A stretch of 64,000 nucleotides of DNA from an uncultured Bacteroidales bacterium. Lineage in GTDB: Bacteria; Bacteroidota; Bacteroidia; Bacteroidales; UBA4417. Below are positions 598 to 49,294 of this stretch, one piece after another. The stretch lies in the NCBI GenBank assembly GCA_903879715.1, contig CAIRMR010000209.1, positions 1-64,000 on the forward strand. The letters run 5' to 3'. Numbering within the stretch: position 1 is the stretch's first letter; each line of letters starts with the position of its first letter. The notes under the pieces are model-generated. The model was not told the DNA's origin. It was given only the letters and a program-made list of their open reading frames with translations, and ran no database searches. The position numbers and the translations under genes were made by a program.

Positions 598-2094
598 CTA
601 TCCTATCTTCGAAAGCGCGTCAATAAACGCCTCAACCGATGCGGTTACTATATCCGTATTCGCTGAGAAACCATAATAAAGTGTTCCTTTGTTCTCAAGC
701 TGAACATGTACTTTACCAATATCATCCGAGCCACGTGTAATGGCCTGGATAAGGAATTCCTCCAGGGTAACTGTTTTGCGGATAATCTGTTTTACCGCGT
801 TAAAGGCCGCGTCAACAGGTCCATTACCAGGTGAGGTGGCTGAATATTCCTCCCCATCCACACTGATCACCACGGAAGCTACTGGCTGAGTAGAGGAACC
901 ACATATTACTTGCAGATGTTTTAACTGGATACGCCTTGAGTGTTCCGACTGTTCTACACCTACCAATACAAAAAGGTCTTCATCTTTGATTTCCTTTTTC
1001 TTATCCGCCAGTTCGATGAATTTATCATACATATCGTTCAAATCCTCAACAGAGAGAGTGAACCCAAGCACTTCAAGACGATGCTTCAATGCAGCACGGC
1101 CCGAACGGGCGGTTAACACAATGCTCGATTCGCGGATTCCTACATCCTGCGGATCAATGATCTCGTAGTTTTCGCGGTTTTTCAATACGCCATCCTGGTG
1201 AATCCCCGATGAATGCGCAAAAGCATTCCGGCCAACAATGGCTTTATTCGGCTGAACCGGCATACGCATAAAAGTGGAAACCATACGGCTGGTTTCATAT
1301 ATCATTTGGGTATTAATACCTGTGATCAGCCCCATATTTGGTCTTGTTCTCAGGGTCATCACAACCTCTTCGAGGGAAGTATTACCGGCACGTTCGCCGA
1401 TACCGTTAATGGTAACTTCTACCTGGCGGGCGCCGTTCATGATTCCGGAAATAGAGTTGGCTGTTGCCATACCCAAATCGTTATGGCAGTGGGTGGAAAG
1501 AATTGCTCTGTCTACATTCTTAACATGATCAACCAGGTATTTGATTTTTTCGCCGTACTCATAGGGCAGGCAATATCCCGTTGTATCCGGAATATTAACA
1601 ACAGTTGCTCCGGCTTTGATAACGGCTTCCACTACCCGTGCCAGATATTCATTTTCGGTGCGACCGGCATCCTCGCAGTAGAATTCTACATCGTCGACGA
1701 AGTTACGGGCATATTTCACGGCAGCGATAGCCCGCTCAATGATTTCGTCCTGGTTCGATTTTAATTTATGCGTGATATGGTAATACGAAGTGCCAATGCC
1801 GGTGTGAATACGTTTACGCCTGGCATATTTAAGGGCATCGGCTGCCACTTCAATATCCTTTTCAACGGCGCGGGTAAGCGCGCAGATAATTGGCTCATGA
1901 ACCGCTTTCGAAATTTCGACCACCGATTTAAAATCGCCGGGACTCGAAATCGGGAAACCGGCCTCAATAACATCAACGCCTAAAGCTTCCAGCTGCTTGG
2001 CAACTTCAATTTTTTCAAGTGTGTTCAGCTGGCATCCGGGAACCTGTTCGCCATCCCGCAGCGTTGTATCAAAAACATAAACTTTATCGCTCAT
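598..2094 (-). CDS. leuA: 2-isopropylmalate synthase
   Basis: Condenses acetyl-CoA with 2-oxoisovalerate, the first committed step of leucine synthesis, in the cytoplasm. The 498-residue protein opens with [14 protein letters not shown] (Arg13, Asp14), the substrate/metal-binding signature of the HMGL-like TIM barrel, and has the metal-ligand motif HCHND at 202-206 followed by NGIGERAGN. The last ~130 residues form the LeuA regulatory (leucine-sensing) domain, with GPVDAAFNA near its start. I chose Met at 2094 (MSDKVYVFD) over an in-frame ATG 60 bases upstream because family members begin right at this strand. It is the last gene of the ilvD-ilvB-ilvN-ilvN-ilvC-leuA operon, 337 bp after ilvC. 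Citramalate synthase is a less likely reading given the LeuA-type C-terminus. Confidence 0.95.
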
Positions 2095-2431
2095 TTTTAT
2101 TTGTTTTAATGAAGCATTCTTTTTTATATGACAAGGCGAGGGGTGATTGGGCAAGGGGATAAAGGGAGAGGGGTGACAGGGAGAGGGGCGATGGGGCGAG
2201 AGGCGAGAGGCGAGGGGCGACAGGGAGACCGAAGCCGGAACAATTGAACATTTTAACTACAGAACAATTGACCTTTGAACCTTTGAACCTTTAAATGCCG
2301 CAGGCATTTACACTTTGTCTTGTTTCGGGGGTTTGGCTCCGCTCACCCGCCTTCAACAACCTGCGTTTAGCGCCTTTGAACATTAGAGCTTTTAAACCCC
2401 TAAACCCCAACCCCTAAATCCTAACACCTTT
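2095..2431. other. Intergenic spacer ilvC-leuA with low-complexity GAGGCGAGAGGCGA-type repeats
   Basis: The 337-bp gap holds an imperfect GAGGGGCGA/GAGGCGA array (about 2150-2225), then TTGAACCTTTGAACC words (2268-2292) and a short palindrome TGCCGCAGGCA. No ORF or terminator is convincing, so leuA is probably still co-transcribed with ilvC. Confidence 0.5.
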
Positions 2432-3478
2432 CTAATTATTCTCCGGCCTCAATTTGCGTACAGCAGCCCCGGCCACCCACATTTCCGAATCGCGGAGTTC
2501 TTTCAGCTCAACTTCGAGTTTTTCGCGGTAATCAGGCTTGCTGTTGGAGTCAATCGAAAGCTGGGCTTCGTTGCCGCTGGCTACTTCGTTGTATAATTCT
2601 TCAAAAACAGGTTTGGTAGCATCACGGAACTTCTTCCACCAGTCGAGAGCGCCACGCTGCGCTGTGGTTGAACAGTTGGCGTACATCCAGTCCATCCCGT
2701 TTTCGGCTACAAGCGGCATAAGGCTTTGTGTAAGTTCTTCAACGGTTTCGTTAAAAGCTTCGGAAGGACTGTGTCCTTTGCTGCGTAAAACATCGTACTG
2801 TGCGGCAAAAATCCCCTGTATAGCTCCCATCAGAGTACCACGTTCGCCGGTAAGGTCGGAGAAAACTTCTTTTTTGAAATCGGTTTCGAAAAGGTAGCCT
2901 GATCCAACCCCAATTCCCAAAGCAACAACGCGGTCGAAAGCACGGCCTGTGGCATCCTGGAAAATAGCATAACTCGAATTGAGACCCCTGCCTTGCAGAA
3001 ACATTCTCCTGAGGCTGGTTCCTGAACCTTTTGGCGCAACCAGGATTACATCAACATCAGCAGGAGGAATAATGCCTGTGCGTTCCTTGTAGGTAATTCC
3101 AAAGCCGTGTGAAAAATACAGAGCTTTTCCGGGAGTCAGGTTTTTTTTGATGGTTGGCCATAATGCGATCTGGCCGGCATCGGACAACAGGAACTGTAAG
3201 ATTGTACCTTTCTGGCAGGCTTCTTCAATTTCGAAAAGTGTAACGCCCGGCTCCCAGCCGTCTTTAACTGCCTTGTCCCATGATTTGGAGTTTGACCGCT
3301 GACCAATGATCACGTTAAAACCATTGTCACGGAGGTTGAGCGACTGACCCGGGCCCTGAACGCCATACCCTATAATTGCTATAGTTTCATCTTTAAGGGT
3401 TTCGATAGCTTTTGCCAAAGGAAACTCTTCGCGGGTTACTACATTTTCTTCAGTTGATCCAAATTTGATTTTTGCCAT
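2432..3478 (-). CDS. ilvC: Ketol-acid reductoisomerase (NADP+)
   Basis: Catalyses the Mg-dependent alkyl migration and NADPH reduction of acetolactate/acetohydroxybutyrate in Ile/Val synthesis. The 348-residue protein has the Rossmann motif GYGVQGPG at 37-44 and the cofactor loop GQRSNSKSWDKA after it, where the Arg and Ser residues favour NADPH. The C-terminal knotted helical domain carries acidic metal ligands (DLTGERGTLMG region). Its length fits class I enzymes. It is fourth-type gene in the operon, after the two ilvN copies and separated from them by a 587-bp repeat-filled gap, and before leuA. Confidence 0.95.
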   Translation of the reverse strand: MAKIKFGSTEENVVTREEFPLAKAIETLKDETIAIIGYGVQGPGQSLNLRDNGFNVIIGQRSNSKSWDKAVKDGWEPGVTLFEIEEACQKGTILQFLLSDAGQIALWPTIKKNLTPGKALYFSHGFGITYKERTGIIPPADVDVILVAPKGSGTSLRRMFLQGRGLNSSYAIFQDATGRAFDRVVALGIGVGSGYLFETDFKKEVFSDLTGERGTLMGAIQGIFAAQYDVLRSKGHSPSEAFNETVEELTQSLMPLVAENGMDWMYANCSTTAQRGALDWWKKFRDATKPVFEELYNEVASGNEAQLSIDSNSKPDYREKLEVELKELRDSEMWVAGAAVRKLRPENN

Positions 3479-4065: not shown

Positions 4066-4635
4066 TCAATTCGCCTTTCTCAGTTTCCTCCTTGTCTCAA
4101 CTCTCTCCAGCAGTTCATCCCTTTCTTTTAGAAATTCCGATAATTTTTCAATCGGCGAACGGGTCAAAGCAATCCTTCCTGAACGGATAAACTGCAACAC
4201 TCCAAACTTGTTCAGTCCCTGGAAAAGATCCTGGGTTTCTTCTTTATGACCGGTTTTTTCGATAACGGTGTATTCAGGGGTAATTTCCAGAATCCGGGCG
4301 TTGTGACTCCGGATGAGTTTCTCAATGTCATCGCTTTCCATCAACGACTTTGTAAGTACTTTATACAAAGCTATTTCCTGGTAAATCATTTCCTCGTTGG
4401 TATGATAAAAGGCTTTAAGAACATCCACAATTTTATCAATCTGTTTTACAATGTTTTTGACTTTCTCTTCTTCTTCGTTGATAACAATTGTGATCTTATG
4501 AATTCCGGGCAGTGCTGATTCAGAGCCCGTGAGGCTTTCGATATTTACTTGCCGGCGGGTGAGTATTATAGTAATGCGGTTGGTCAAACCGATATGGTTC
4601 TCGCTGTAAGTAGTGATTATAAATTCTTTTTTCAT
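4066..4635 (-). CDS. ilvN: Acetolactate synthase regulatory (small) subunit, second copy
   Basis: A 189-residue protein with an N-terminal ACT domain (about residues 4-75, beginning EFIITTYSENHIGLTNRI) and the second ALS small-subunit domain (about 85-160, with NARILEITPEYTVIEKTGH). It would bind valine and modulate IlvB. Start taken at 4635 (MKKEFIITTYS), which aligns with the paralogue; 19 more codons are open upstream but have no family counterpart. By my count about four residues in five match the upstream copy, so this is a tandem duplication. The main differences are at the C-terminal tail (RRKLRKAN), in the ACT loop (NEEEEKVKN) and in the mid-region VLTKS. Twenty-five bases separate the two genes. 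Confidence 0.9.
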   Translation of the reverse strand: MKKEFIITTYSENHIGLTNRITIILTRRQVNIESLTGSESALPGIHKITIVINEEEEKVKNIVKQIDKIVDVLKAFYHTNEEMIYQEIALYKVLTKSLMESDDIEKLIRSHNARILEITPEYTVIEKTGHKEETQDLFQGLNKFGVLQFIRSGRIALTRSPIEKLSEFLKERDELLERVETRRKLRKAN

Positions 4636-4660
4636 TTCAATCGTCTTCAAAAACCAGTTG

Positions 4661-5227
4661 TTACACCTTGGCAATTTTGCCTTTGGATTCAATTTTTGCC
4701 AGCAGCGCGTCTCTTTCTTTCAGGAATTCCGAAAGTTTTTCGATAGGCGAACGGGTAATTGCTATTCTGCCTGAGCGTATAAACTGCAGTACACCAAACG
4801 GATTTAATCCGTTGAATAATTCCTGGGTTTCTTCCTTATGCCCTGTTTTTTCGATAACCGTGTACTCCGGTGTGATTTCAAGTATCCTGGCATTGTGCTT
4901 GCGGATAAGTTTTTCAATCTGGTCGCTCTCCATAAGTGGCGCTGTAGGCACTTTATACAAGGCAATTTCCTGGAAGATCATTTCCTCGTTAGTATGGTAA
5001 AACGCCTTGAGGACTTCAATCTGCTTGTCGATCTGCTTAACGATATTGCTGACTTTATCCCTGGTTTCGTTTACTACTATGGTAAATTTCGAAATGCCTT
5101 TCAGCGCAGATTCAGAAACAGTAAGGCTCTCGATGTTTACTTTGCGACGGGTAAATATGATTGTAATGCGGTTCAGCAAACCGATATGGTTTTCGCTGTA
5201 TGCGGATATGATATATTCTTGTTTCAT
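4661..5227 (-). CDS. ilvN: Acetolactate synthase regulatory (small) subunit, first copy
   Basis: A 188-residue ALS small subunit following ilvB. It has an ACT domain at about 4-75 (EYIISAYSENHIGLLNRI), the conserved AFYHTNEEMI segment, and a C-terminal domain with NARILEITPEYTVIEKTGHKEET. It should activate IlvB and confer feedback inhibition by branched-chain amino acids. The gene lies 195 bp downstream of ilvB, the gap being partly a hexamer repeat, and 25 bp upstream of its tandem paralogue at 4066-4635. Confidence 0.93.
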   Translation of the reverse strand: MKQEYIISAYSENHIGLLNRITIIFTRRKVNIESLTVSESALKGISKFTIVVNETRDKVSNIVKQIDKQIEVLKAFYHTNEEMIFQEIALYKVPTAPLMESDQIEKLIRKHNARILEITPEYTVIEKTGHKEETQELFNGLNPFGVLQFIRSGRIAITRSPIEKLSEFLKERDALLAKIESKGKIAKV

Positions 5228-5422: not shown

Positions 5423-7171
5423 CTATTTTACCGCATCTTCAGGACTCAACAGAATATCGGAAACGGATGCTCCTGCAGGAACCATGGGGAAGACATTATC
5501 GTCCTTTTCAATATTAACCTCAAGCAGATAGGGGCCTTCGGTCTCGAACATAACTTTGATGGCATCATCAAGTTTATCGCGGTCCGTAACATGGTTGCCC
5601 GGAATGCCATACGCATCAGCTACTTTTACAAAGTCGGGACTTAAAATTTCAGTAAAAGAGTATCTTTTTTCAAAGAAAAGCTCCTGCCACTGACGAACCA
5701 TTCCCAGGAAATGGTTGTTAAGGATCACCATTTTTACACCCAGTTTTTCCTGGGCAATGGTACCCAGTTCCTGGATGGTCATCTGGAAACCGCCATCACC
5801 GGCAAACACTACAACTTCGCGGTTGGGTTCGCCTAATTTGGCGCCGATGGCTGCTGGCAATCCAAAACCCATTGTTCCCAGACCACCTGAAGTGATATGG
5901 CTTCGTGGCTGTGTGAACCTGGAATAACGCGCCGTAGCCATTTGATGCTGACCCACATCCGAAACAATTACGGCCTTATTTTTAGTGTATTCCGAAACCC
6001 TGCGTACTACTTCTCCCATTGTTAAACCAGGTTTTGTAGGATATACATCAGAATGAATAACCTTTTTTACTTCAATAGCCATGGCTTGTTTGAATTCTTT
6101 CACCCATTCCTTATGCTTGTTCGGACTAACGATATGGGTCAACAAACGAAGTATTTTCTTGGCATCGCCCAATAAGGCCACATCCGTTTTTACATTTTTA
6201 TTGATTTCGGCAGGATCAATTTCGATATGAATGATTTTTGCCTGCTTGGCATAGGTTTTCAGCGTACCGGTTACGCGGTCGTCGAAGCGCATTCCAACGG
6301 CAATCAGCAAATCACATTCATTGGTTTTAATATTCGGACCATAGTTGCCGTGCATTCCCAGCATTCCTACGTTTAAAGGGTGATCGCTGTTTAAAGCTGA
6401 TAAGCCCAGGAGTGTCCATGCTGCGGGGATACCGGTTTTATCTATAAAACTTTTCAGTTCCCGTTCCGCTTCTCCAAGCATAATTCCCTGCCCGAAAACC
6501 AGGAAAGGTTTCTTTGCCCCGTTTATTAAGGTTGCTGCTTCAGCTAATTTCTCTTTATTTACAGGATATTCGGGAACATAACTCCTGATTTTATGGCATT
6601 TGGCATATTTGTATTTCAACTTGCCAAACTGTGCGTCTTTGGTAATATCCAGCAAAACCGGTCCCGGCCTGCCTGAGGCGGCAATATAAAAAGCCTTGGC
6701 AATGGCTTCAGGAATATCTTCCGGAGTTGTAATCTGGAAATTCCATTTGGTAACCGGCATCGAAAGGCCGACCACATCTGATTCCTGGAAAGCGTCGGTG
6801 CCAAGTAAACCCGAAGTAACCTGGCCGGTGATACAGACCAAAGGTGTGGAATCAATCTGCGCATCGGCAATACCGGTCATAAGATTGGTAGCACCGGGAC
6901 CTGAGGTGGCAATACATACACCTACTTTTCCCGTTACGCGGGCATATCCCTGTGCGGCATGTACAGCGCCCTGTTCGTGGCGGGTAAGAATATGCCTGAG
7001 TGCATTGCGATAATCGTACAATGCATCGTAAACCGGCATAATGGCTCCGCCGGGATAACCGAAAATAACTTCCGCACCTTCAGCAATTAAGGAACGGATA
7101 ACAGCTTCGCTACCGGTAATTTCAACATCCTGCTGCTGTGACCTACGGGTTTCTTTTTCTTTAGTCGTCAT
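5423..7171 (-). CDS. ilvB: Acetolactate synthase catalytic (large) subunit
   Basis: ThDP-dependent condensation of two pyruvates, or of pyruvate with 2-oxobutyrate, the first common step for Val/Leu and Ile. The 582-residue protein has the three ThDP-enzyme domains: an N-terminal Pyr domain with catalytic Glu66 in RHEQGAVHAA, a central domain (around GMLGMHGNYGPN), and a C-terminal PP domain with GDGGFQMT from residue 458 and NN at about 485, the Mg-ThDP motif. The length is typical. It is the second gene of the operon, 88 bp downstream of ilvD; the two small subunits follow. Confidence 0.96.
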   Translation of the reverse strand: MTTKEKETRRSQQQDVEITGSEAVIRSLIAEGAEVIFGYPGGAIMPVYDALYDYRNALRHILTRHEQGAVHAAQGYARVTGKVGVCIATSGPGATNLMTGIADAQIDSTPLVCITGQVTSGLLGTDAFQESDVVGLSMPVTKWNFQITTPEDIPEAIAKAFYIAASGRPGPVLLDITKDAQFGKLKYKYAKCHKIRSYVPEYPVNKEKLAEAATLINGAKKPFLVFGQGIMLGEAERELKSFIDKTGIPAAWTLLGLSALNSDHPLNVGMLGMHGNYGPNIKTNECDLLIAVGMRFDDRVTGTLKTYAKQAKIIHIEIDPAEINKNVKTDVALLGDAKKILRLLTHIVSPNKHKEWVKEFKQAMAIEVKKVIHSDVYPTKPGLTMGEVVRRVSEYTKNKAVIVSDVGQHQMATARYSRFTQPRSHITSGGLGTMGFGLPAAIGAKLGEPNREVVVFAGDGGFQMTIQELGTIAQEKLGVKMVILNNHFLGMVRQWQELFFEKRYSFTEILSPDFVKVADAYGIPGNHVTDRDKLDDAIKVMFETEGPYLLEVNIEKDDNVFPMVPAGASVSDILLSPEDAVK

Positions 7172-7259: not shown

Positions 7260-9089
7260 TTACTCAATCATACGCACGGCACCTTTATCGGCCGATGAAA
7301 CATGCATGGCGTAAATTTTAAGCGCATCCGAAATATTTCTCTTCCTGGTTTGCGGTGTATAAGCAGCTTTTGCACGTGAGGTTTCATTGTCCTTTCTGCG
7401 TTTCAGTTCTTCCTCACTTACATTCAGATTGATTGCGCGTGTGGCAATATCAATTACTATGGTATCGTTATCTTTTATCAGGGCAATTTCACCGCCAGCT
7501 GCTGCTTCGGGGGAAACATGGCCGATGGAAAGCCCTGAAGTGCCTCCAGAAAAGCGACCATCAGTTATCAACGCACAAACCTTATCAAGTTTCAGGGTTT
7601 TAAGGTAGGAAGTCGGGTAAAGCATTTCCTGCATCCCGGGACCGCCTTTGGGGCCTTCGTAACGGATAACCACAACATCACCGGCATTTACCTTTCCACT
7701 CAATATTCCATGAACAGCTTCATCCTGCGATTCAAAAACCCTTGCTGTTCCTTCGAAATGAAACAGAGCGGGATCGATTCCGGCGGTTTTTACGATACTG
7801 CCTTTTGTGGCAATGTTTCCGTATAAAACGGCAAGTCCGCCATCCTGGAAATAGGCATGTTCAACATCACGGATACATCCCGAAACACGGTTATCATCCA
7901 GTTTTGTATAACGGGTATCCTGCGATCCCATTACCAGGTTTATTTTATGAGCCGGCGCGCTGCTGAATATCTGCATGGCTTCGGCAGTAACATCGGTACT
8001 TAGAATATCAAAAGCATTTATTGCCTGTCCCAGGTTTAACCCATCAACACGGTAAGCTGAAGTGTCCATAAGGCCGGCACGGTTCAATTCGCCAAGCAGC
8101 GACAGGATTCCTCCCGCGCGGTTAACATCCTCGACATGGTACTGTGAGCTAGGCGAAACTTTGCAAAGGCAAGGCGTTTTCCGCGAAAGCTCATCGATAT
8201 CCTTCATCGTGAAATCAACGCCGGCTTCGTGAGCAACGGCAAGTAAGTGTAGAACTGTATTGGTTGATCCTCCCATGGCAATATCCAATGTCATGGCATT
8301 TGTAAATGCTTTTTTGGATGCAACCTGCCTTGGAAGTACAGTTTCGTTTCCTTTATCATAATATTCGCGGGCCATTTCAACAATACGGCCGGCAGCTTTT
8401 TCGAAAAGTTTCAGCCTGTTGACATGCGTTGCGACAACAGTTCCGTTTCCGGGAAGTGACAAGCCCAAAGCTTCGGTAAGGCAGTTCATGCTGTTGGCGG
8501 TAAACATTCCGGAGCAGGAACCACAGGTCGGGCAAGCGGATTGCTCAACTTTGGCAAGATCAGTATCGCTAACGCTATCGTCGGCACCCATAACCATGGC
8601 ATCAACCAGGTCGAGTTTGCGATCGCCCATAATGCCGGCTTCCATTGGTCCGCCGGAAACAAAAATGGTTGGAACGTTCAGCCTCATGGCAGCCATCAGC
8701 ATGCCGGGAGTAATTTTGTCGCAATTGCTGATGCAGATAAGCGCATCGGCTTTATGAGCATTCACCATGTATTCAACACTGTCGGCAATCAGGTCGCGCG
8801 ATGGAAGTGAATACAACATACCGTCGTGGCCCATGGCAATACCGTCGTCAATGGCAATGGTATTGAACTCGGCGGCAAAACATCCTTGCGCTTCGATCAG
8901 TCCTTTAACATACTGCCCGATAGAATGCAGATGCGCGTGCCCGGGAACAAACTGGGTGAACGAATTGGCAATGGCGATAAGCGGTTTGCCAAACTGCTCT
9001 TCTTTCATTCCGTTTGCACGCCAGAGGCTTCGGGCTCCTGCCATTTTACGGCCTTTGGTTGATGTATCGCTGCGAAGTGGGATCTGCAT
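7260..9089 (-). CDS. ilvD: Dihydroxy-acid dehydratase
   Basis: Dehydrates 2,3-dihydroxy-isovalerate and -methylvalerate to the 2-oxo acids. The 609-residue protein follows the E. coli IlvD pattern closely (HGRxMAGAR-like [29 protein letters not shown]). Cluster cysteines are visible in NCDK (Cys123) and in CPTCGSC (186, 189, 192), fitting the oxygen-sensitive [4Fe-4S] type. Start placed at 9089 ([13 protein letters not shown]) rather than 27 bases upstream, because relatives begin here. It is the first structural gene of the operon. The leader peptide and attenuator lie at 9362-9497, about 275 bp upstream. Confidence 0.95.
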
Positions 9090-9229: not shown

Positions 9230-9303
9230 TGCCACAGATTTCACAGATTTTCGCAGATTAATTTTTTAATTTCTATGCTTATCTGCGAAATCTGTGGCTA
9301 TAC
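9230..9303. repeat. Palindrome of CCACAGATTTC words
   Basis: GCCACAGATTTCACAGATTT (9230-9249) is mirrored by ATCTGCGAAATCTGTGGC (9281-9298) around an AT-rich loop, so the RNA can fold into a long imperfect hairpin. It lies in the ilvD 5' untranslated region. The same words recur at 29590-29700 and in part at 57590-57660. Confidence 0.75.
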
Positions 9304-9361: not shown

Positions 9362-9400
9362 ATCAAAAAGCCCCTCTCAGTTCAAGTGAGAGAGGCTTCT
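9362..9400 (-). terminator. Attenuator terminator of the ilv-leu operon
   Basis: On the minus strand AAGCCTCTCTCA (9398-9387) pairs with TGAGAGGGGCTT (9379-9368), 12 bp with one G-U, followed directly by T residues. It begins 27 nt after the stop codon of the leader peptide and precedes ilvD. That is the arrangement expected for transcription attenuation. I could not settle a competing antiterminator by eye. Confidence 0.85.
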
Positions 9401-9425
9401 GTTTATATTTTGTTAAACAACATTC

Positions 9426-9497
9426 CTAACCCACCTGGATTTTCCAGAGGACGAGGAGGAGGAGGCTAATAATGCTGTTTGAAAAAATGACTGACAT
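9426..9497 (-). CDS. ilv operon leader peptide (23 residues)
   Basis: ATG at 9497 to TAG at 9428-9426 encodes 23 residues. The core, read from residue 9, is IISLLLLVL, so nine consecutive codons hold two Ile, five Leu and one Val. Four of the Leu codons are consecutive CTC. A run of regulatory codons in a tiny ORF just before a terminator, upstream of ilvD, is the textbook form of an ilv/leu leader. Ribosome stalling at scarce charged Leu/Ile/Val tRNA would prevent the hairpin at 9362-9400. A consensus promoter lies immediately upstream, leaving a 5' leader of roughly 14 nt. Function is inferred from position and codon content. Confidence 0.85.
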   Translation of the reverse strand: MSVIFSNSIISLLLLVLWKIQVG

Positions 9498-9517
9498 ACA
9501 AATTGTGTTTGTGGCTA

Positions 9518-9548
9518 CAAAAATACGGCCTATTTTTACATGCCCAAC
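9518..9548 (-). promoter_or_regulatory. Bacteroidetes-type promoter of the ilv-leu operon
   Basis: On the minus strand TGTTG (-33 element, TTG at 9547-9545) is separated by exactly 19 bp from TATTTTTG (9525-9518), matching the Bacteroidetes sigma consensus TTG-N19-TAnnTTTG. The predicted start of transcription is about 14 nt before the leader-peptide ATG. Confidence 0.8.
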
Positions 9549-9785: not shown

Positions 9786-10619
9786 TTAAATTTTCTTATA
9801 AATCCCGCTTTGAAGAACGATTTTATTCTCCTTCAGGCCTTTAAGTAAATTGCCGGATTTTTCCAGGGTGGAATCACCCATTAAAATATCCAGGCCCAGT
9901 TTTTTAGGTCCACTCTTATTGTTTCTTTCAAACATGCCAGAGAAAAACTCTATTGCGTTATCCGTCTGGTCAGTAGTTTGAACTAAGGTAAGTCCAAGAT
10001 TTTTAAGGATAGTATTCATATTTAGAATGGTTCCCAAAAAACTGATGGAAGGATCGTTCGCCCAGGGAACAGGAAAATCCAATTCTGATGAATTCTTCCT
10101 GAATATGTCATAGTAAATAAATATTCCTTTATCGGTTAACACTCTTGCAATTTCAGAATAAAATCCGGCTTTATCGCTGATGTTCATTTGCACATGCTGG
10201 GTCCATACTACATCAAAAGATCCGTTTTCGAAAGGTAATTCGAGTGCATCGCCTTGTATGAATTCAGTTTTATCATTTAGTCCGACAAGGGTGGTCAATT
10301 TGCGCGCAGTGAGAATAAACTCATGGCTCATATCAATGCCCGTAACTTCACAGTTAAATTCATCGGCGAGCATCCTGGCAGGCCCTCCTATTCCGCAACC
10401 TACATCCAAGACCCTGCTTCCAACCAGGTTTATTTCCTTTGCAATTTCCCTGGAAACTTCGGCTCCCCGTACATGAAACTCATCCACTATGCTAAGATCA
10501 GTCCGGGTTATATTTTCCGGATCAATTCCGTGCAACTTTAGCCGTTCAACAATTTCCTCGAAAAGCTTAGCTTTGTTGTAGTGATTTTTAATAAAGGTGT
10601 TAATATGGACTTTGTGCAT
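9786..10619 (-). CDS. Class I SAM-dependent methyltransferase
   Basis: A 277-residue protein with a Rossmann-type SAM-binding core. Motif I is VLDVGCGIGGPAR (about residues 90-102), the acidic strand-2 end is VTGIDMS, motif post-I is FIQGDALELPF and motif IV is FDVVWTQHVQMNI. The GCGIGGPAR version of motif I and the pattern that follows resemble sarcosine/dimethylglycine and related small-molecule methyltransferases, but the substrate cannot be read from the sequence. The C-terminal third is cap-like and family-specific. It stands alone, with a MITE-like element about 70 bp upstream of its start and no operon partner. Confidence 0.8.
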   Translation of the reverse strand: MHKVHINTFIKNHYNKAKLFEEIVERLKLHGIDPENITRTDLSIVDEFHVRGAEVSREIAKEINLVGSRVLDVGCGIGGPARMLADEFNCEVTGIDMSHEFILTARKLTTLVGLNDKTEFIQGDALELPFENGSFDVVWTQHVQMNISDKAGFYSEIARVLTDKGIFIYYDIFRKNSSELDFPVPWANDPSISFLGTILNMNTILKNLGLTLVQTTDQTDNAIEFFSGMFERNNKSGPKKLGLDILMGDSTLEKSGNLLKGLKENKIVLQSGIYKKI

Positions 10620-47703: not shown

Positions 47704-47732
47704 CAACACAAATGAGAACTCAATCCGCAAAT

Positions 47733-47774
47733 ATGAATTGGTGGCACTTTACGACAAACGTTGTGGACAGCTAA
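47733..47774 (+). CDS. trpL: trp operon leader peptide
   Basis: MNWWHFTTNVVDS, 13 residues, with two consecutive Trp codons at positions 3-4 and a TAA at 47772-47774. Adjacent Trp codons followed 27 nt later by a perfect terminator is the classical trp attenuator design. An earlier in-frame ATG at 47712 would give 20 residues, but it lies about 2 nt from the predicted transcript start, so 47733 is preferred. Stalling at the Trp codons when charged tRNA-Trp is scarce would favour readthrough into trpE. Confidence 0.88.
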   Translation: MNWWHFTTNVVDS

Positions 47775-47801
47775 TTTATTTGCGTTAACTTATACTAAGA
47801 T

Positions 47802-47836
47802 AACCCGCTGTTTACATCAAACAGCGGGTTTTTTAT
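47802..47836 (+). terminator. trp attenuator terminator
   Basis: AACCCGCTGTTT (47802-47813) and AAACAGCGGGTT (47819-47830) form a perfect 12-bp stem with a 5-nt loop, followed by T residues to 47834. It lies between the leader peptide and trpE. Confidence 0.9.
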
Positions 47837-47860
47837 TTCCTGACATTTAACAACAGTATT

Positions 47861-49294
47861 ATGAAAATTCACACTAAAACATACCAGATCCTTTCCGACA
47901 CTAAAACGCCGGTAAGCTTATTCCTTGCTTTGCGCGATGAATACAGCGCGCCGATGTTACTCGAAAGTTCAGACTATAACAGCAAAAGCAACCATTATTC
48001 GTTTTTATGTTTCGAGCCGATAGCAACCATCAGCATTCATAATAAAGTGTCGAAAACAAAGATCAATGGTGAAGTTGCGAGAGAAACCTTGTCGGCGGAT
48101 GCTCAATCACTGAATACTGCTTTTACTAATTTCATAACCAGATTTGAATTCGACGAGGAATTGCCGGAACACTTCAAAGGCGTATACGGGTATTGCTCAT
48201 TCAATATTGTTGAATATACGCATGAATTGAAGCTGAGAAATAACGCAAACGAAATCCCGGAACTGCTGTACCATCTGTATTCACTGGTTTTGATGTTTAA
48301 CCATGCTACCAACGAACTTAGCATGTATTCGCATGCTTATTCCGAGAACGATGCCATTGAAAACCTGGAACTACTGATTGAACGGATTGATCTGCACAAG
48401 CATAATAATTACTCTTTTGAACTTATCGGAGGCGAAACCAGCAATTGCACGGATGAGGACTTTATGCTTAAAGTTACCAGGGCAAAGAAACACTGCAAAC
48501 TGGGCGATGTTTTCCAGTTGGTTGTTTCACGCAGGTTCTATCAAAGTTTTAAAGGCGATGATTTTAATGTTTACAGAGCTTTGAAAAAAATAAATCCTTC
48601 GCCTTACCTGTTTTATTTTGATACCGGAAATTTCAGGATTTTCGGTTCATCGCCCGAAGCGCAGTTGAAAATCACCAAGGGCGTTACTGAAATTCACCCG
48701 ATTGCCGGCACTTACAAACGCACCGGGGATGATGCTTTCGACATTGTAAAATCAGCCGAATTGCTGAACGATGCCAAGGAAAATGCGGAACATGTGATGC
48801 TTGTCGACCTGGCCCGGAACGACCTGAGCAAATACTCGAAAAACGTTCATGTGAGATCGTATAAACAGATTCAGTTCTATTCCCATGTAATTCATATGGT
48901 GAGCAATGTGTGCGGCGAATTGCGTCCCGAGTTCAACTCCTTCGAAACTTTGAGCGGTACATTTCCGGCGGGAACCTTATCGGGAGCGCCCAAACACCGC
49001 GCCATACAGCTTATTGATGAGCTCGAAAACGATGCCCGCGGATTTTATGGAGGAACCATCGGCTTTGTGGGTCAGAAGAGTGAACTCAACCAGGCAATCA
49101 TCATCCGTTCCTTTTTAAGCAAAAACAACCAGCTTGTGTACCAGGCCGGTGCCGGAATTGTTCAAAGCAGTCAGGAAGTTAATGAACTGAATGAAGTATT
49201 TAACAAAATAAATGGATTGCGTAATGCCTTGAAAGAAGCAAATACGCTTTTTAAAACCAAAGCCAGGACGGAAGAAGTCGCTTCGAAACTATAA
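47861..49294 (+). CDS. trpE: Anthranilate synthase component I
   Basis: A 477-residue chorismate-using subunit. The N-terminal LLESSDY motif (residues 33-39) is where tryptophan feedback binds, and the chorismate-binding core has FGSSPEAQLK, HPIAGTYKRTGD, the DLARNDLSKYSK segment, HMVSNVCGELRPE, and TFPAGTLSGAPK toward the end. Together with TrpG it makes anthranilate. It starts 26 bp after the attenuator hairpin and is the first structural gene of trpEGDCFBA. Feedback inhibition by Trp is expected from the LLES motif. Confidence 0.95.
   Translation: MKIHTKTYQILSDTKTPVSLFLALRDEYSAPMLLESSDYNSKSNHYSFLCFEPIATISIHNKVSKTKINGEVARETLSADAQSLNTAFTNFITRFEFDEELPEHFKGVYGYCSFNIVEYTHELKLRNNANEIPELLYHLYSLVLMFNHATNELSMYSHAYSENDAIENLELLIERIDLHKHNNYSFELIGGETSNCTDEDFMLKVTRAKKHCKLGDVFQLVVSRRFYQSFKGDDFNVYRALKKINPSPYLFYFDTGNFRIFGSSPEAQLKITKGVTEIHPIAGTYKRTGDDAFDIVKSAELLNDAKENAEHVMLVDLARNDLSKYSKNVHVRSYKQIQFYSHVIHMVSNVCGELRPEFNSFETLSGTFPAGTLSGAPKHRAIQLIDELENDARGFYGGTIGFVGQKSELNQAIIIRSFLSKNNQLVYQAGAGIVQSSQEVNELNEVFNKINGLRNALKEANTLFKTKARTEEVASKL

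Follow-up and report, generated by a model that had tools for sequence, protein, structure and literature searches.

Leader-peptide attenuation is a classical mode of control, long known in other bacteria. In the 64,000-nucleotide stretch of DNA from an uncultured Bacteroidales bacterium analyzed here (the window), a short open reading frame dense in codons for isoleucine, leucine, and valine, followed by a hairpin, lies ahead of ilvD. Is this locus an attenuator of the type established for the ilv and leu operons of enterobacteria, as an earlier note made from the sequence alone had proposed, and if so, how widely is the device kept among relatives?

Genes downstream of the leader

The genes that follow the leader encode the cognate pathway, that of Ile and Val together with the first step of Leu synthesis, in the order ilvD-ilvB-ilvN-ilvN-ilvC-leuA, and all six would lie on one transcript:

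7260-9089, minus strand: ilvD, dihydroxy-acid dehydratase, the first structural gene (NCBIfam TIGR00110, NF009103)
5423-7171, minus strand: ilvB, acetolactate synthase large subunit (TIGR00118)
4661-5227, minus strand: ilvN-like acetolactate synthase small subunit, first copy (TIGR00119)
4066-4692, minus strand: ilvN-like acetolactate synthase small subunit, second copy (TIGR00119)
2432-3478, minus strand: ilvC, ketol-acid reductoisomerase (TIGR00465)
598-2154, minus strand: leuA, 2-isopropylmalate synthase, the true start of which is probably internal (TIGR00973)

The gene group carries two similar small-subunit genes in tandem (4066-5227, minus strand) and about 590 nt without a recognized gene ahead of ilvC. 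The start of ilvD is about 280 nt downstream of the leader terminator, and the intervening DNA contains a palindromic repeat of about 70 bp (CCACAGATTTCGCAGAT..., 9232-9303), the half-site of which has 86 matches dispersed genome-wide, versus none for a reversed control pattern.

Architecture of the leader

Direct reading of the minus strand bore out the elements from which the earlier note had argued: a promoter of the form TTG-N19-TATTTTTG (9547-9518), a 23-codon open reading frame with two Ile, five Leu, and one Val codons within nine, and a 12-bp terminator stem (9398-9368) beginning 27 nt beyond the leader stop codon. Folding gave two further structures absent from that list, an antiterminator formed by pairing of the stop-codon region with the 5' arm of the terminator and a protector hairpin, so that the window has all three hairpins. 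The parts are as follows:

9545-9547, minus strand: TTG, the -33 element of the predicted Bacteroidota promoter, read from the sequence; TTG-N19-TAYTTTTG-like sites recur in same-genus loci
9544-9526, minus strand: promoter spacer of 19 nt, read from the sequence
9518-9525, minus strand: -7 element TATTTTTG, supported by enrichment of TAnnTTTG upstream of leaders
9426-9497, minus strand: leader reading frame, 23 codons from ATG to TAG, MSVIFSNSIISLLLLVLWKIQVG, with length and frame shared by all seven same-genus loci
9447-9473, minus strand: control codons 9-17 (Ile Ile Ser Leu Leu Leu Leu Val Leu), kept in relatives as the I/L/V class
9463-9480, minus strand: segment 1, the partner of segment 2 in the protector hairpin (1:2), by folding (duplex -20.7 kcal/mol)
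9415-9434, minus strand: segment 2, running from the last leader codons through the stop codon, with segment 1 or 3 as partner, by folding and alignment
9386-9434, minus strand: antiterminator hairpin (2:3), GTGGG/AGG/TTGTTTA with TAAACAG/CCT/CTCAC (duplex -16.8 kcal/mol), supported by covariation
9368-9398, minus strand: intrinsic terminator hairpin (3:4), with a 12-bp stem and a T run that extends to 9365 (-21.3 kcal/mol), supported by covariation

Transcription is predicted to start near 9511. The control codons read ATT ATT AGC CTC CTC CTC CTC GTC CTC (2 Ile, 5 Leu, 1 Val, and 1 Ser), that is, eight of nine consecutive codons are of the I/L/V class, which makes up 12 of the 23 codons of the leader. 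The terminator stem is formed by AAGCCTCTCTCA (9398-9387) and TGAGAGGGGCTT (9379-9368), and the whole leader fold was more stable than each of 200 dinucleotide shuffles (z -3.5). A scan for sigma-70 promoters, a promoter type wrong for this phylum, did no better than on shuffled sequences, and the terminator scan run with it overlooked the 9368-9398 hairpin.

Conservation of the leader ahead of ilvD

The ilvD genes compared, each taken with its upstream flank, came from members of the host genus and the order and from 80 named genome contigs; reading frames of 8-50 codons were sought in as much as 600 nt of this flank, and I/L/V codons were counted per 10-codon window. At least seven such codons in ten were found at 69 of the 109 ilvD loci, versus nine of 109 when the opposite strand was scanned and a rate of about 12% in dinucleotide shuffles; at a threshold of at least eight in ten the counts were 54 and one of 109, with 18 of about 1090 dinucleotide shuffles (<2%). 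Judged by these sequence comparisons, the leader reading frame of the window is not a product of chance. At each of the seven same-genus loci the leader is 23 codons long, lies in the same frame, and ends in ...V(G/S)-TAG (that of L014 counted from an internal ATG), and the search of relatives found an I/L/V-rich leader in 18 of the 22 other families sampled from the order. Similar leaders with terminators precede ilvD in several other families of the wider phylum (L124, L130, L134-L136, L151, L153, L155, L156, and L158). The 600-nt scan of the 109 loci detected no leader at some Bacteroidales loci, and no leader with a plausible terminator was found at the clearly non-Bacteroidota loci of the set (Desulfobulbaceae, Spirochaetes, Fibrobacter, and Acidobacteria). 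The putative -7 element is likewise recurrent: TAnnTTTG was present upstream of the leader at 51 of 63 loci, mostly 18-37 nt before the start codon, versus 5% of shuffles. The search for leader codons in related genomes, which the earlier note had put forward as a check, thus found them conserved as a class; the hairpin is kept along with them, as is an antiterminator that covaries, so the case that the note had named as refuting its proposal, a conserved hairpin with leader codons that are not, did not arise.

At three loci (L092, L099, and L110; Labilibaculum, Marinifilaceae, and Marinifilum) two complete I/L/V leader-plus-terminator units stand in series within the 600 nt before ilvD. The second leader begins about 17 nt past the first T run, leaving no space for a promoter of its own. 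Such tandem leader-peptide attenuators appear to have been little reported.

Segment 3 keeps two pairing partners

A hairpin with a T run followed the leader stop codon in 64 of the 69 leader loci, nearly always 20-53 nt downstream, and in 50 of these 64 the stop-codon region was complementary to the 5' arm of the terminator at p<=0.05, where mononucleotide shuffles gave an expectation of about three. Each stop-codon region bound the arm of its own locus better than arms swapped in from other loci (sum -943 versus -711 +/- 19, a difference of 12 standard deviations not reached in any of 20,000 permutations). As the loci are related rather than independent, the permutation and shuffle figures somewhat overstate the certainty.

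Covariation was assessed on a MAFFT alignment of 61 loci built without reference to structure. In the terminator (3:4) 91.5% of cells were paired, and all 12 pairs had changes on both sides; in the antiterminator (2:3) 82.7% were paired, with compensatory double changes in nine of ten pairs, and sliding the partner lowered 2:3 pairing to 45-59%. Two dissimilar loci, L018 (AATCGGTATGT with ACATGCCGATT) and L070 (GAGAAAGG with CCTTTCTC), still have all three segments matched, and hence segment 3 has kept both partners through sequence change. On this comparative evidence, retention of both partners marks an attenuator, and another explanation is difficult to find. Compared with those of other loci, the antiterminator of the window ranks toward the weak end: it is interrupted by two internal loops and reached p = 0.065 in the simple duplex test. 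The protector hairpin (1:2), which is strong in the window, was significant in 15 of 60 loci, and as a universal feature it is unsupported beyond near relatives.

Ribosome position and the choice of hairpin

The consequence of ribosome position was modeled by equilibrium folding of the RNA left free by the ribosome up to the end of segment 3, with a ribosome shadow of 12 nt starting at the first A-site base. With the A site of the ribosome at any of codons 3-18 of the window leader the antiterminator formed (-14.7 to -20 kcal/mol), at codons 19-20 its pairing was partial, and from the end of the reading frame there was none; with no ribosome present segments 1 and 2 paired. Across 60 loci the antiterminator formed in 56 with the ribosome at the first control codon, in 56 with it at the last, and in 12 once the ribosome had reached the end of the reading frame. 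Such folding models show that the design is workable and are not proof that stalling occurs.

The conserved leader, the terminator, the covarying antiterminator, and the stall folding together argue that the locus is very probably a classical ribosome-mediated transcription attenuator, one that would control the whole ilvD-ilvB-ilvN-ilvN-ilvC-leuA group. The proposal of enterobacterial-type control is thereby supported by conservation of the leader codon class and of the hairpin as well as by the antiterminator. In the proposed mechanism, transcription would begin near 9511 and a ribosome trailing the polymerase would translate the leader. With ample charged tRNAs for Ile, Leu, and Val the ribosome would reach the stop codon at 9426 and cover segment 2, which would leave segments 3 and 4 to pair as the terminator and end transcription near 9365. 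When any of these charged tRNAs is scarce the ribosome would stall on codons 3-17, leaving segment 2 free to pair with segment 3, and the polymerase would read through into ilvD. On a leader without a ribosome segments 1 and 2 would pair and the terminator would form as well.

Amino acids probably sensed by the leader

The earlier note had held that the leader senses mostly Leu, with Ile and Val. The Leu weighting stands for this species (5 Leu, 4 Ile, and 3 Val in the whole leader) and for its two closest relatives (L010 and L011), but other members of the genus (L012, L014, and L015) are Ile-rich at the same place and, in the folding model, a stall at any of codons 3-18 (Val3, Ile4, Ile9-10, the Leu/Val run, or Trp18) gives the antiterminator. 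Many families are Val-rich: Val alone was the commonest of the three in 25 of 61 leaders, and all three amino acids occurred in 55 of the 61. A safer wording is that Ile, Leu, and Val would be sensed together, with a Leu weighting in this species.

Codon choice in the 61 leaders also differed from that of the ilvD genes (Val GTC 48% versus 14%, Leu CTA 20% versus 3%, and Ile ATT 69% versus 45%). This bias perhaps reflects isoacceptors that lose their charge sooner, and it may offer a test of whether leaders use the codons of starvation-sensitive tRNA isoacceptors.

Trp and His leaders in the same genome

A leader of similar design with tandem Trp codons (WW) is present elsewhere in the window: its reading frame, MRTQSANMNWWHFTTNVVDS, lies at 47712-47774 on the plus strand within an attenuator spanning 47712-47837, in which a terminator (ACCCGCTGTTT...AAACAGCGGGT) with a T run is followed by trpE at 47861. 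On another contig of the same genome (C154; L119:1186-1242) a His leader, MNFNQLHHHHLHTISGME (HHHH), is followed by a terminator and then hisG. Folding with the ribosome halted on the Trp or His codons gave the antiterminator in both. Given the match among the ilv, trp, and his leaders, the organism appears to use leader-peptide attenuation for at least three pathways. No threonine-type leader was seen in the flanks examined of the homoserine dehydrogenase loci of this genome.

Alternative readings of the leader

Three other explanations of the locus were weighed. The leader could act by a route other than intrinsic termination, such as Rho or translational coupling to ilvD. At three more distant loci of the phylum (L145, L148, and L149) an I/L/V-rich reading frame is indeed followed by a conserved GGTCAA-CCC...GGG-TTGACC hairpin lacking a T run; a variant of this control that acts through Rho or on translation is suggested there. 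However, the window and nearly all Bacteroidales loci have a good T run at the hairpin and ilvD well downstream (in the window by the distance given above), and we consider this explanation improbable for them.

Alternatively, the leader RNA could be read by a protein or by an uncharged tRNA, in the manner of TRAP or a T-box, and the reading frame be incidental. An antiterminator/terminator pair is in itself compatible with this, as T-boxes and protein-controlled leaders have such pairs too. However, the most constant feature of the loci is the in-frame I/L/V codons, the identities of which are free to vary, and in the same genome the leader before hisG has His codons and that before trpE Trp codons. 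Rfam searches of the whole window at gathering and permissive thresholds matched neither the T-box model nor any other leader family (Thr_leader reached 16.1 bits, versus 55 needed). We put the chance of such a reader even lower. Just as improbable is that the hairpin merely terminates the methyltransferase gene upstream on the same strand (9786-10619, ending about 390 nt before the hairpin) and that the short reading frame is a chance occurrence, a reading rejected on grounds of conservation: a promoter-like site and the leader intervene between that gene and the hairpin, and leader, terminator spacing, and antiterminator are kept before ilvD in many families.

Relation to known attenuators

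The attenuator favored here resembles those of enterobacterial ilvGMEDA, ilvB, and leu in having a short Ile/Leu/Val-rich reading frame and, by folding, protector, antiterminator, and terminator hairpins before genes of Ile, Val, and Leu synthesis. It differs from them in having no recognizable sequence relation (no Rfam match), in its position before ilvD, in its Bacteroidota promoter (TTG-N19-TAnnTTTG), and in belonging to a phylum whose ribosomes disregard Shine-Dalgarno sites (PMC9976891, PMC6847099). In Staphylococcus aureus a Leu-rich attenuator peptide with terminator and antiterminator, backed by mutants, likewise lies directly upstream of ilvD (PMC5794164); that leader belongs to another phylum and is also under CodY, and the likeness noted here is one of layout. 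The Bacteroid-trp RNA motif (RF01692; PMC2864571) is also a cis-regulatory motif of Bacteroidetes in Rfam, by its name for trp rather than ilv, and it had no match anywhere in the window, including the trp leader there.

As late as 2010 it could be said that, until a Firmicutes example, leader peptides were known from Proteobacteria and Actinobacteria only (PMC2965389). Within Bacteroidota, but in another order, mapped transcripts of Flavobacterium psychrophilum gave "strong clues" for leader-peptide attenuation before amino-acid biosynthesis operons, the main text of that report mentioning no ilv leader (PMC9723704). In the literature searched we found no description of a Bacteroidales ilvD leader, and the 2010 survey by Lopatovskaya et al. 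(cited in PMC4833913) may already list one. Hence the mechanism is known and earlier reports from Bacteroidetes exist; the present comparison of loci indicates that it is widespread and conserved in Bacteroidales.

Implications

The Bacteroidales set shows how common leader-peptide attenuation is. We lean, if only slightly, toward a broader reading in which classical attenuators operate across the phylum on ribosomes that do not use Shine-Dalgarno pairing, the amino acid sensed being quickly re-tuned on a fixed chassis (Leu- or Ile-rich within one genus, Val-rich in many families) and two units being stacked in series in Marinifilaceae. If true, phylum-wide attenuators of this kind would imply coupling of leader translation to transcription. 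For classical attenuation to work, the polymerase must be followed closely by a ribosome, and conservation of the mechanism across Bacteroidales, which initiate translation without Shine-Dalgarno pairing, provides indirect evidence for such coupling in a phylum that is central to the gut microbiome. The attenuator may also serve as a ready amino-acid-responsive control element for Bacteroidota.
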